NCBI GenBank assembly: GCA_002070275.1
Contig: MWCY01000012.1
Location: 1 to 64,000, forward strand
Origin: Candidatus Hydrogenedentes bacterium ADurb.Bin170
GTDB taxonomy: Bacteria > Hydrogenedentota > Hydrogenedentia > Hydrogenedentales > CAITNO01
Length of the DNA: 64,000 nucleotides
Reading direction: 5' to 3'
Shown here: positions 17,491 through 23,393 of the stretch, one piece after another
Numbering within the stretch: the first letter of the stretch is position 1
Layout of the letters: each line of letters starts with the position of its first letter
Position numbers and translations under genes: made by a program
Notes under the pieces: model-generated
What the model was told of the DNA's origin: nothing
The model's database searches: none
The model's input: only the letters and a program-made list of their open reading frames with translations

Positions 17491-19542
17491 ATGAGAAAAT
17501 ACCTTCTCTTCATAGCCGTGCTTCCCGGATTGCTGATCCTTCACCCTGGCTGTCACCTGATCCAGCCTGAAGCACGCTTTACCATAAGCCCGGAAACAGG
17601 CGAAGCACCGCTTTTTGTCACGCTGAATAACCAGTCTGCCCCCGGCCTTTTTGGCGCACCCCGTTATGAGTGGGATTTCGGAGATGGAAGCGCCCTCAGC
17701 ACCGAAGAATCTCCACGCCATCTTTACGAAAAAGCAGGGCAGTATTCCGTTACCCTGACACTGAAAACCCTTTTCCAGAAGCATAGGGCAACAAGAAGGC
17801 TGGAAGTCCGCGAGCCCGGCTCCGGCGAAATAGTCACGGTTAACTTTGAAGTCAGACCCCGGGAAGGTGCGGCGCCGCTGGTGGTACAATTCACAGATAC
17901 GTCTTTTGTGGCAGGAGCTGCCGTCACAGGGCGGATCTGGGACTTCGGCGACGGAACACACATCCGGGCATTGAATCCTGTACACCGTTACACCGATGCA
18001 GGCAGTTACGATGTCACACTGACCATTTTTACGGAAAATTCAACGTACAGCCATACAATGGAAAATGCTGTCTCTGTTGCCAAAACAGAGCAGCGTCTCT
18101 CTGCCACCAGACAACTCAGCCCCGGCTCCGGCACGGACGAGAATAACCAAATTGCAGTGACGCTGCATTTTGCCGGATTCATCCGGGAAGTGCCAACACC
18201 TGTTCTGCTGAAAGAAGTACTGCCCGAAGGGTGGCGCTTTGCCGGTTTACTTCAGAATACAACTCCAGAAGCGCTACTCACTGAAGAAGAAGTAGGACAA
18301 GTGCAGTTCTTCTGGGTTGACTGCCCGCCCCTCCCTTTCAGCCTCTCCTACCTGATTGAAGCGCCCGAACCCTGCACCGAAGGTATCCTCAGCGGACAGC
18401 TCCATATGCGGGAGTCCGGCTCGGTTGAAATGCAGCATCCCGGAGAAACAAGGGTTGTGTGTGAAGCACTCCCGTTGGAAGGTGAAAGCGAGGGCGAAAT
18501 CATCGAGGGCGAAGTGCCCGGTGAAGGTGAAAGCGAGGGCGAAATCATCGAGGGCGAAGTGCCCGGTGAAGGCGAGATCGAAGGCGAAATCAGCGAAGGC
18601 GAAGTGCCCGGTGAAGGTGAGATCGAAGGCGAAATCAGCGAAGGCGAAGTGCCCGGTGAAGGTGAGAGCGAAGGCGAAATCAGCGAAGGCGAAGTGCCCG
18701 GTGAGGGTGAGAGCGAAGGCGAAATCAGCGAAGGCGAAATGACGGAAGGAGAAAGTGCGCCTGAAGAAAAACTCGCTCTCTCCTTGAAAAGATGGGCGGA
18801 TGGAGATCAGCGCTATCTTCCCGATACCCTGCTTTCCCTGAATATTTCTTTGACTGCTTTCGGTGAGGGCATCCCCGAATCACTCACCTTGGAAGAACAG
18901 TTGCCCCGCAACTGGACTTTTACAGAATTACATGACCCTTCAGGCCTGATCAGCAGCCACAAGAACAGTGAGGGCACAATCACCTTCGTCTGGTCTGCTT
19001 TGCCCACGTTTCCTGTACAGTTTTCCTACGATGTGCTTCCCGGTGCATCCAATGAAACCGAAACCATTGACGGCAGTGCCTTTTATACGGTCAATGGTAC
19101 CACGCTCCGTTCGAATCAGGAACAGAGCCAGTTCAGGCGTTACGAAACACTGCTCTCTCTGGAACGAAAAGAGGCACCTTCGGGATATATCCCCGGGAAG
19201 CCTCTGGCAGTCACGCTGCAGTGGAAGCGCATCGGTCTTGAAAAGCCGCTGGCTTTTGCCTGTGTGGAATTATTACCTGCAGGATGGCGTTTTGCAGGCA
19301 TTGTTGAAGCTACCGGTAATCCGCCGGACATTCTTCCCGAAATGGACCAGGAAAATATGCTCGCCTTCGGCTGGACAACGACACCGACCGCACCCGGATC
19401 TTTTACCTATAAGGTGCTGCCGCCTGAAGATGCAAGAGGCATTGCCTGTATTACCGGATATAGTCTTTACCGTTTTACCGGCGAGGAGCAGAAAACAGCA
19501 TTGACCGGGCGCTGCTATCCCCGGGGATCTTTTCAACCGTGA
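17491..19542 (+). CDS. Lipoprotein with two PKD domains, EGE-repeat linker and three related C-terminal domains
   Basis: 683 residues. The signal peptide ends in a lipobox-like LHPGC (Cys about residue 27), so a lipoprotein is likely. Two PKD domains follow, shown by YEWDFGDGS and IWDFGDGT. Three copies of a roughly 110-residue domain come next: one before and two after an acidic linker. Each copy has a strand with W-R/T-F ([24 protein letters not shown]) and an F-x-W strand (FFWVDCP, FVWSALP, FGWTTTP). The linker at 18481-18750 is six 15-residue Glu/Gly units. Such proteins are probably outer-membrane or surface adhesins or scaffolds. It precedes tolB on the same strand. Confidence 0.8.
18481..18750 (+). 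repeat. Six tandem 45-bp units encoding Glu-Gly-rich linker
   Basis: Six in-frame 45-bp units, each encoding about [15 protein letters not shown], with small changes (S/I, I/S) between units and a degenerate last unit. The period is a multiple of three, so gain or loss of units would keep the frame. This acidic linker is of the type common in secreted proteins of Hydrogenedentota-like bacteria. Confidence 0.95.
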
Positions 19543-21078: not shown

Positions 21079-21206
21079 AAAAGTGGATATCCTTTCCGGA
21101 TGTTCTGTATACTTTTTTAATATTTCGCACTGCCGGGGGCTTTTTTGTCTCCTTGAAGAGCAGTGCCCGCATTTATACCCATCATCTTTTTCGGAGTGTC
21201 TTCATT

Positions 21207-22160
21207 ATGAAAAGAAAAGGCTTTACCCTGATTGAGCTTCTTGTTGTAATTGCCATTATTGGCATCCTGGCAGCGATTCTCCTGCCCGCACTCGCCCGTG
21301 CCCGCGAGGCTGCGCGGAGGTCCAGCTGCCAGAACAATCTGAAACAATGGGGCATCATTTACAAAATGTATTCCAGCGAGTCACCTGGAAATAAATACCC
21401 GAAGGTCTGCCTGGCAACCGTGCAGACACGATTTTGTGAACAGCCGGGTATGCCCTTCTCCGGTGCGAACAGCGTTGTCGCCGCCGGTATGTATCTGCCG
21501 TCTCTCTACCCTGAATACCTGACCGATGCGAAGATTCTGGTCTGCCCTTCTGACGCTGTCGAAACTGCAGACTCTGTCATCAACCCCGTTACAGGCACGA
21601 CCGATATCGGTGTGGCATGTCAGGAGAAAAAACGGGGTGTCCATCTGGCAGACGCCAGTTATCTTTATCTGGGCTGGGTGCTGGACAAGGCAGGATCCAC
21701 CGATCCCAGCGTCGATCTTGCCTCTGTGCCTATCCCCGGCCTGAATGTAAGCGGCCCCGCACCGAAGCAGGTGGTCGATGGTGTACTGGCGGCATTCATG
21801 CCCTTCCTCCTGAGTCAGGACGACCGGATGGCGGACAAGGATGTGGAAGTGGATCCCGGGCTGGGCAATGGCGCCGGCAATATGATCTACCGTCTGAGAG
21901 AGGGCATTGAGCGCTTTCTCATTACCGACATCAACAATCCGGCCGCAAGCGCCATGGCGCAAAGCACCCTTTGGATCATGGGCGACATGATCGGCATTGA
22001 CCCCAATCTTTATAACCATGTACCCGGCGGCTCCAATGTCCTGTACATGGACGGACATGTCCAGTTCCAGCGTTATGAAGAAAAAGGGTCGGCTCCGGTG
22101 AACAGCGGCGTGGGACGATGTGTTGCGGCTCTGCAAGCGGTACAAAATCTGCTTCTGTAA
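21207..22160 (+). CDS. Prepilin-type protein with H-X9-DG C-terminus (DUF1559-like)
   Basis: 317 residues. The ATG at 21207 is preceded by GGAG 10 bases away. The start [19 protein letters not shown] is a textbook type II/IV prepilin leader: cleavage after Gly, methylated Phe, Glu at +5 and a hydrophobic helix. The helix runs into [14 protein letters not shown]. The C-terminus has [17 protein letters not shown], the H-X9-DG signature of prepilin-like proteins abundant in Planctomycetes and Hydrogenedentota-like genomes. Many paralogues of this class are usually present per genome and the role is unclear, probably a pseudopilin or secreted surface protein. It directly precedes the M(K/R)HI small-gene cluster. 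Confidence 0.92.
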
Positions 22161-22279: not shown

Positions 22280-22435
22280 ATGAAACATATTATCCGATTG
22301 AGCAATCCTGTCGAGCGGGCAGCCACTACATCTACAGGCGCCTATATTGTTCTGGCAGGTCAGATTCTTGCCATCCTGGCGGGTCTCTTTGACGGCAAGG
22401 AAGTCTTAAAGCCGGATGCACAAGCTGAAGATTAA
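22280..22435 (+). CDS. MKHI-family small protein 1 (51 residues)
   Basis: A 51-residue product starting MKHIIRLSNPVERAA, with GGAG 9 bases upstream. After the basic start it has a hydrophobic segment (YIVLAGQILAILAGLF) and an acidic tail ending KPDAQAED. Its N-terminal part aligns with small protein 3: both read M-K/R-H-I, then L-S, then P and E-x-A-A. I know no family for it. The hydrophobic stretch suggests membrane association or a membrane-active peptide, which is an inference. First of five such genes at 22280-23337. Confidence 0.7.
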   Translation: MKHIIRLSNPVERAATTSTGAYIVLAGQILAILAGLFDGKEVLKPDAQAED

Positions 22436-22596
22436 AAACCGAAATAAAAATAGCCGACGGGAACTTTCCGGCTGATACGGGAATTAGTTTATCAGTGGGT
22501 CATGCATCTTTATAAACCCGTAAATTGTAAATTCCATAGGCGCTGTGCGATGATAACAGCATTGACACAGTGATATGCTGAAATTGGAGAAGTAAA

Positions 22597-22794
22597 ATGA
22601 AGCACATAAGAAGAATGGGGCGCTTGCCCCGGCCAGCACAAACCGATGGTCTTTGCACTGATATCACCAGTGATCTGCAGGCCCGGTTCTGTTTTGTCCT
22701 TTCCTTTTTCTCGCAGGTTTTCGTGCCACTGGTACAGCCCCTGATAGCGATCAAGGCTGCGCCCACCACCACACCTCCTGCCACTGAAGAGTAA
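22597..22794 (+). CDS. MKHI-family small protein 2 (65 residues)
   Basis: A 65-residue product starting MKHIRRMGRLPRPAQ, with GGAG 7 bases upstream. It contains a hydrophobic stretch rich in Phe and Val (VLSFFSQVFVPLVQPLIAI) and ends in a Thr/Pro-rich acidic tail (TTTPPATEE). It shares the MKHI start and the overall layout (basic start, hydrophobic middle, polar Pro-rich tail) with proteins 1 and 3. A TTGACA at 22562-22567 lies upstream but no matching -10 follows at the correct spacing. The function is unknown. Confidence 0.65.
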   Translation: MKHIRRMGRLPRPAQTDGLCTDITSDLQARFCFVLSFFSQVFVPLVQPLIAIKAAPTTTPPATEE

Positions 22795-22828
22795 ACACTA
22801 TCCGCCCGGAGCAAACGAGGAACCAGCC

Positions 22829-23005
22829 ATGAGACACATTTACACGCTCAGCAGCAAACCGGAACAGGCAGCAGGCCTGGCACCGGACGTTGTCATCACG
22901 CTGATCATTGATCTTCTGAAAGTGTTCCTTCCGCTTTTCCAGAATAAAAATCCGCAAAATCCCGGCACGGGCACAGATCCGAAGCCTCCCGAAGATGACA
23001 AGTAA
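22829..23005 (+). CDS. MKHI-family small protein 3 (58 residues)
   Basis: A 58-residue product starting MRHIYTLSSKPEQAAG, only 34 bases after gene 2, with GAGGA 7 bases upstream. The middle is hydrophobic/amphipathic (VVITLIIDLLKVFLPLF), and the tail is Asn/Pro/Asp-rich, ending PKPPEDDK. Its start is the closest to protein 1 within the cluster, which argues for duplication and divergence. The function is unknown. Confidence 0.68.
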   Translation: MRHIYTLSSKPEQAAGLAPDVVITLIIDLLKVFLPLFQNKNPQNPGTGTDPKPPEDDK

Positions 23006-23016
23006 ACGGAATTATT

Positions 23017-23045
23017 TTGTGTTTGCAGGCGCAATATGCTATAAG
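23017..23045 (+). promoter_or_regulatory. Predicted internal promoter for small genes 4 and 5
   Basis: TTGTGT (23017-23022) and TATAAG (23040-23045) are 17 bases apart, 40 bases before gene 4. The hexamer is preceded by TGC, an extended -10. It could let genes 4 and 5 be expressed apart from genes 1 to 3. Confidence 0.45.
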
Positions 23046-23084
23046 TAGCGTGCATGTGCAATGCATCGCAATGGAGTTATTACG

Positions 23085-23192
23085 ATGAAACACATCCGGA
23101 AGATGACTGTCAGACGTGCCGATGCTTTTCTGACCCTGTTTAATACGCTCTGGCGCGCCTGGTACGATTTTCGCCAATCCAAATATGTATAA
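23085..23192 (+). CDS. MKHI-family small protein 4 (35 residues)
   Basis: A 35-residue product starting MKHIRKMTVRRADAF, with GGAG 8 bases upstream. The second half is aromatic and basic (TLWRAWYDFRQSKYV), with no long hydrophobic run, so it would form an amphipathic helix. It is closely related to protein 5: both have A-F, then a hydrophobic turn, then R-A-W/F-Y-D-F-R. It is too short for standard gene callers, but the paired similarity and good ribosome-binding site support it as a real gene. The function is unknown. Confidence 0.66.
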   Translation: MKHIRKMTVRRADAFLTLFNTLWRAWYDFRQSKYV

Positions 23193-23217
23193 GCAACAGC
23201 GTCAGGAGGAACGAATA

Positions 23218-23337
23218 ATGAAACACATTAAGAAACTTTCTGCCAGAAAAGCCATGGCGTTCCAGGACTTTCTGTACACAGTCTACCGCGCTTTTTATGA
23301 TTTCCGCTTCCAGAAGAAAAACGAATATTACGGCTGA
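23218..23337 (+). CDS. MKHI-family small protein 5 (39 residues)
   Basis: A 39-residue product starting MKHIKKLSARKAMAF, with an excellent AGGAGGA site 7 bases upstream and only 25 bases after gene 4. The C-terminal half (VYRAFYDFRFQKKNEYYG) matches the end of protein 4. Protein-level similarity with changed codons indicates selection on the peptide. A strong terminator follows at 23359. The function is unknown. Confidence 0.68.
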   Translation: MKHIKKLSARKAMAFQDFLYTVYRAFYDFRFQKKNEYYG

Positions 23338-23358: not shown

Positions 23359-23393
23359 AAGCCGACCTTTAACGCTAAAAGGTCGGCTTTTTG
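23359..23393 (+). terminator. Rho-independent terminator closing the MKHI cluster
   Basis: AAGCCGACCTTT and AAAGGTCGGCTT form a perfect 12-bp stem around a 7-base loop, followed by a T tract. It lies 21 bases after the last small gene, so it defines the end of this transcription unit. Confidence 0.92.

Follow-up and report, generated by a model that had tools for sequence, protein, structure and literature searches.

Five small peptide genes of a Hydrogenedentota genome belong to a conserved, probably leader-tagged peptide system with a CteB-like protein lacking the radical SAM motif

Five small genes in tandem in the genome of Candidatus Hydrogenedentes bacterium ADurb.Bin170 are genuine genes under purifying selection, as judged from their orthologs in the sister species G001, and have homologs across the phylum. 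They most probably encode RiPP-like precursors with a leader of the SCIFF/QhpC type, which would be handled by a converted radical SAM maturase together with the other products of a conserved operon, and exported. As far as sequence comparison can tell, this peptide system is outside SCIFF and every other family tested. The DNA analysed (the window) is a stretch of 64 000 nucleotides (contig MWCY01000012.1, positions 1 to 64 000); all coordinates refer to it unless another contig is named.

Five small genes in tandem

The original prediction placed five short frames in a row on one strand, each with a ribosome-binding site and each starting M(K/R)HI. All five were found as described on the forward strand between 22280 and 23337, with lengths of 51, 65, 58, 35 and 39 codons. 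Each is closely preceded by a GGAG/GAGG/AGGA-type sequence (a ribosome-binding-type site), and M(K/R)HI is the N-terminal start common to the five peptides. The residues reported as shared by proteins 1 and 3 (LS, P, ExAA) and by proteins 4 and 5 (RA(W/F)YDFR) were also correct.

The peptides were assigned to types A to D from alignments. Gene 1 (22280-22435) encodes a type B peptide of 51 aa (MKHIIRLSNPVERAATTSTGAYIVLAGQILAILAGLFDGKEVLKPDAQAED; type pattern GQIL...KE). Gene 2 (22597-22794) encodes a type C peptide of 65 aa with two conserved cysteines (pattern GLCTDITSDLQARFCFVLSFF...VPLVQPLI..K). The product of gene 3 (22829-23005) is of type D, with 58 aa (pattern VPLFQNKNPQNP). Gene 4 (23085-23192, 35 aa) and gene 5 (23218-23337, 39 aa, with a C-terminal KKNEYYG) are two copies of type A (pattern RADAF..F.NAVWRAW.DFR..KKNE). 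The run is closed by an intrinsic terminator at 23359-23389 on the same strand, with the predicted 12-pair stem followed by T's, and a similar hairpin stands at the equivalent place after the peptide genes of G001.

Occurrences of ATGARRCAYATH were counted in the 3.5-Mb genome of the window: 21 were found, and the reversed control gave 5. Of the 21, five are the peptide genes, packed within 0.95 kb, and on these counts chance was excluded for the cluster. At none of the remaining 16 does a small frame resembling the peptide genes begin. Each gene was then compared with its G001 ortholog. pN and pS were 0.21 and 0.83 for gene 1, 0.14 and 0.72 for gene 2, 0.14 and 0.77 for gene 3, 0.05 and 0.31 for gene 4, and 0.07 and 0.78 for gene 5, i.e. 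pN 0.05-0.21 and pS 0.31-0.83 over the five genes. A dN/dS near 1 had been named beforehand as an outcome that would count against the genes; the ratio was well below 1 for all five orthologs.

The cores are strongly conserved within each of the four types. The gene order B-C-D-A is kept in relatives, with losses and additional copies, and the number of peptides per genome varies from about two to five. Evolution by duplication, as first proposed, holds for proteins 4 and 5, which both belong to family A; types B, C and D, whose order is conserved, are ortholog groups of their own and not recent copies. Conserved cysteines are confined to type C (two), with none in types A, B and D. A lysine is found at position 25 or later in 82 of the 84 non-A peptides and near the C-terminal end in all 38 type A peptides. 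Around the first core lysine, the hydrophobic-to-polar switch is sharper than for random placement (0.22 vs 0.01, sd 0.035).

Distribution

Related frames, whose absence would likewise have spoken against the genes, exist across the phylum. At a loose threshold, protein 4 matched in 32 of 40 relatives. In a profile search, family A (proteins 4 and 5) was detected in 53 of 68 Hydrogenedentota genomes, and in 34 of the 38 high-quality ones. A wider scan for peptide loci, with one genome per species, covered 84 980 species and gave 14 convincing loci. Eleven of them are in genomes named Hydrogenedentota, Hydrogenedentes or Hydrogenedens; the remaining three (G025, G029 and G034) belong to the same order. 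A single weak partial match in Roseomonas was taken as chance.

Type A was undetected in the six genomes of family f4 (G019, G027, G032, G037, G040 and G041), four of which also lack the permease F5 described below. Either this lineage has lost the peptide system, or the system was gained late.

The small proteins had no match in Pfam and none near the cut-off in NCBIfam. The Rfam search gave nothing credible, PADLOC returned generic ATPase matches only and the search for viral contigs gave none. In the open literature searched on Hydrogenedentota peptides, SCIFF-like leaders and SPASM/GNAT combinations, no description of the system was found.

The common leader segment

The original prediction had proposed an undescribed, leader-core-like family, which agrees with an N-terminal segment of about 14 residues common to otherwise different peptides. 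In gene 1 this segment (codons 1-14) occupies 22280-22321; in genes 2 to 5 it occupies 22597-22638, 22829-22870, 23085-23126 and 23218-23259, all on the forward strand. The leader set comprised 124 peptides, and its consensus is M[K/R]H[I/L/V]xx[I/L/V][S/T]xx[P/R/K]xxA, in which positions 2-4 were imposed by the search pattern. Residue 7 is mostly hydrophobic and residue 8 small (S/T in 94%) in 122 of the 124 peptides, and Ala occupies position 14 in 72% of those collected. Several synonymous codons are in use at the K/R and H positions, so it is the amino acids of the leader that are conserved. A shared leader followed by four distinct core types, as in RiPP precursors, is present.

A position matrix was built from 119 distinct Hydrogenedentota leaders and applied to 1826 ORF starts from eleven loci as controls. 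The three highest scores among the 1826 were 14.2 for a Novosphingobium QhpC, 11.1 for SCIFF and 9.8 for another QhpC; the next was 2.3. The SCIFF leader owes its second rank mainly to its KHI, and on the remaining positions 0.058 of shuffles score equally well. The Novosphingobium QhpC (PF08992) starts MKHLKPINRKA, near MKHLKPISTRRADAF of the G006 type A peptide (MKHLKPIS). Five of the seven QhpC leaders score low (three from Leisingera, one each from Paracoccus and Pseudomonas), of which those of Paracoccus and Pseudomonas also start MKH. A true SCIFF locus, with both models above cut-off, was found in Acetoanaerobium noterae, and its precursor starts MKKHIKTLSKD. A search of PDB sequences with the type B and leader profiles gave chance matches only and did not recover the CteA peptide.

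The start of the window peptides resembles leaders known to be bound by an RRE. The CteA leader is positioned on the RRE of CteB (PMC8326336). QhpC must carry its leader to bind QhpD, and genes for a leader protease and an ABC exporter belong to the qhp operon as well (PMC7876137). In relatives of the window's genome, genes for a protein of the leader-binding type, for a protease and for an ABC exporter likewise lie next to those of the peptides, in keeping with the proposed leader-core organization.

The linked operon

Six genes in the same direction, F3, F2, F4, F0, F5 and F1, come after the type A gene in most relatives; neither a radical SAM gene nor a conserved neighbouring large subunit was found in this operon. 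The permease gene F5 is present in 60 of the 68 Hydrogenedentota genomes. Type A and F5 are both present in 51 genomes; two have type A without F5 and nine have F5 without type A, all counts being from drafts. The two genes are on one contig and on the same strand, 3.0-4.3 kb apart and with the peptides upstream, in 36 of the 51. This count is for linkage of the peptide to the neighbouring permease; F1 itself comes after the permease in many loci. Among the 15 genomes without contig linkage, at least G031 was counted as a contig break, because F3-F2-F4-F0 follow its peptides. Two consecutive F2-like matches were seen in the operon of G050 and G056, which suggests a split or duplicated GNAT gene.

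In the window's genome, the operon is on another contig, C89; F1 runs off the end of C89 and resumes on C66. The ends of C89 and C66 share about 40 bases, the draft being broken inside F1. The precursors are at least 22 kb from both ends of their 80-kb contig, and the same split between precursors and operon was found in G001, G003, G008 and G016. For these reasons, the separation in the window's genus looks like a real rearrangement.

F2 and F3 are above the Pfam GNAT cut-offs, and the fold of the F2 model matches SpeG. The acetyl-CoA loop Q/RxxGxG/A is not conserved in the alignments of 17 F2, 15 F3 or the F1 proteins; with this loop unconserved in the GNAT-fold proteins, no catalytic step is secured and any group transfer is hypothetical. 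F4 is an Rce1-like/CPBP protein (PF02517, 38.5-48.6 bits for a cut-off of 22.4) which keeps the motif residues Glu-Glu, Arg, His and Asn (EEiIyR, H.HfF.N and H..RN). F0 is a DrrA-like ABC ATPase, below the cut-off of the DrrA model. F5 is a membrane protein with a mean column identity of 59%, weakly similar to annotated ABC permeases.

F1, a CteB-like protein

F1, the product of the last operon gene, is 610-680 aa long. Over 436 positions, its profile matched CteB, the SCIFF maturase (PDB 5wgg), at E = 4e-42, and the aligned part covers both the SPASM region and the leader-binding domain at the N-terminus. The AlphaFold model of F1 (mean pLDDT 77, pTM 0.65) had 5why/5wgg (CteB) as best fold matches in the PDB, followed by GNATs for the C-terminal part. 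This part scored 22.7 bits against Pfam GNAT, below the cut-off of 25.4, although its fold matches. A leader-binding (RRE/PqqD-like) domain accompanying the precursors, as in RiPP systems, is represented by the N-terminus of F1 through its homology to the CteB RRE.

CxxxCxxC was found in none of 18 F1 proteins. No match to Pfam Radical_SAM (PF04055) was obtained with the F1 proteins tested, whereas two positive controls, an authentic SCIFF maturase and one of the QhpD type, matched at 2e-15. In a ten-sequence alignment, Cys 25, 28, 400, 403, 409 and 432 are invariant; F1 has four conserved SPASM-type cysteines. Against the SCIFF maturase model TIGR03974, F1 scored 60.8 bits for a cut-off of 425. 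In a set of 20 relatives, no protein passed the cut-off for a SCIFF maturase, though weaker radical SAM relatives are present. From these comparisons, F1 is a relative of CteB, probably derived from a radical SAM maturase by loss of its cluster motif and fused to a GNAT domain.

Proposed function and alternatives

In the proposed scheme, residues 1 to about 14 would form a common leader, and the remainder of types A, B, C and D would be different cores. The machinery would be that of the conserved operon, which lies beside the precursors in relatives and apart from them in the window's genome. The N-terminal RRE domain of F1, of the CteB/QhpD kind, would bind the leader, and F1 would present the bound peptide to the GNAT-fold proteins, which would act on the core or present it in turn. 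A possible target of these is the lysine closing the hydrophobic segment, found in nearly all peptides. F4, a putative glutamic-type intramembrane protease of the CPBP family, would trim the peptide, which would then be exported by the ABC transporter. The system would thus work as a leader-guided peptide maturation and export pathway, with the converted maturase as its unusual part. We lean, with some reserve, towards a more specific reading, in which a radical SAM maturase of the ranthipeptide type has turned non-radical and GNAT-fused with its leader code kept, throughout the phylum. One leader would then direct several unrelated but conserved cores per genome either into new chemistry, which may be acyl transfer, or out of the cell as surface or signalling peptides. 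The membrane-active and signalling roles first proposed are candidates for the products. Counting against the scheme are the unlinked precursors and operon in the window's own genus, the SCIFF leader fit, which is marginal beyond KHI, the low scores of five of the seven QhpC leaders, the unconserved acetyl-CoA loop of the GNAT-fold proteins, and the two draft genomes with type A but no permease and nine with the reverse.

Other explanations were weighed. F1 could still serve radical chemistry as the leader-binding partner of an intact radical SAM enzyme whose gene lies elsewhere, in which case the products would be ordinary radical SAM RiPPs. PqqD is a known example of a separate leader-binding partner (PMC12710340), other radical SAM proteins are present in these genomes and type C has two conserved cysteines; this is nevertheless rather doubtful given a conserved operon free of radical SAM genes, the lack of SCIFF maturases above cut-off in 20 relatives and the absence of conserved cysteines from types A, B and D. 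As structural subunits, the peptides could also form part of a complex in the membrane or periplasm and be matured by way of their leader, like QhpC; the product would then be an enzyme or an envelope complex rather than a free peptide. The four distinct cores, their fixed order and strong conservation, and a nearest leader match, QhpC, that is itself an enzyme subunit would all fit, but the operon has no conserved large-subunit neighbour and the peptide number differs among genomes, so that such a role is unlikely.

Multi-peptide bacteriocins made of hydrophobic and amphipathic peptides, for which the ABC transporter would be the exporter, the CPBP protein the immunity factor and the shared start an export signal only, would account for tandem small hydrophobic or Trp-rich peptides beside these two proteins, and CPBP immunity proteins are known for bacteriocins. 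A near phylum-wide presence, usually at one locus per genome, the same core types across families and purifying selection make the peptides unlike fast-turnover antagonistic peptides; as F1 and the GNAT-fold proteins would also be left unexplained, bacteriocins are considered very improbable. Chance open frames or decaying fragments, to which the small size and the lack of a Pfam match and of a near-cut-off NCBIfam match could point, have a negligible probability: they are refuted by the phylum-wide conservation and purifying selection, and the codons at the K and H positions vary synonymously with the amino acids kept.

Comparison with known systems

SCIFF (TIGR03973/TIGR03974; CteA/CteB) is like the leader-guided system proposed here in its leader start, KHIKTLS, in the alignment of F1 to CteB over the leader-binding and SPASM parts and in being conserved throughout a large clade (PMC8326336). 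The Hydrogenedentota F1 differs by the missing CxxxCxxC and the C-terminal GNAT domain. Hydrogenedentota also have several unrelated cores and an operon carrying GNAT, CPBP and ABC genes. The six-Cys core of SCIFF (six Cys in about 45 residues) is missing from the window-type cores, and nothing in the 68 genomes was above the cut-off of the SCIFF peptide model TIGR03973. The qhp system (QhpC, QhpD, QhpE and QhpF) shares the type of leader and has a leader-dependent, CteB-homologous maturase, a separate protease and an ABC exporter (PMC7876137). The qhp proteins differ from those of Hydrogenedentota: the large enzyme subunit QhpC carries Cys-Asp/Glu cross-links, the radical SAM enzyme QhpD is intact, and the protease QhpE is subtilisin-like and not a CPBP protein. 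F4 resembles the Mrt sorting proteases (MrtJ, MrtC and MrtS) as an Rce1-like/CPBP protein with the motif residues, but is far under the cut-off of every Mrt model, and its putative substrates are small leader-tagged peptides. As for RimL/SpeG-type GNATs, F2 and F3 pass Pfam GNAT, and the F2 model and the F1 C-terminus match SpeG/RimL folds; the unconserved acetyl-CoA loop and the fusion of one GNAT to a CteB-like protein set them apart.

A nearly uncultured phylum thereby gains a conserved peptide system of its own, absent from Pfam and NCBIfam. The comparisons suggest that one KHI-type leader code is common to ranthipeptides, quinohemoprotein subunits and a third, non-radical system. If true, this also suggests that reuse of a radical SAM maturase is possible after the loss of its cluster.

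Neighbouring genes

Directly upstream of the peptide genes, the window encodes a prepilin-type protein at 21153-22160 (N_methyl + DUF1559 in Pfam). A DUF1559-like gene (family F9) is also found upstream of the peptide genes in G001 and G009. Further upstream, 17491-19542 encodes a protein of 683 aa that has PKD-like parts and, in the middle, a tandem repeat of the (E/S)GEGE type. On C89 (1-4044), the operon comes immediately after yidC-jag-mnmE (Pfam matches), a block of genes for membrane insertion and tRNA modification.
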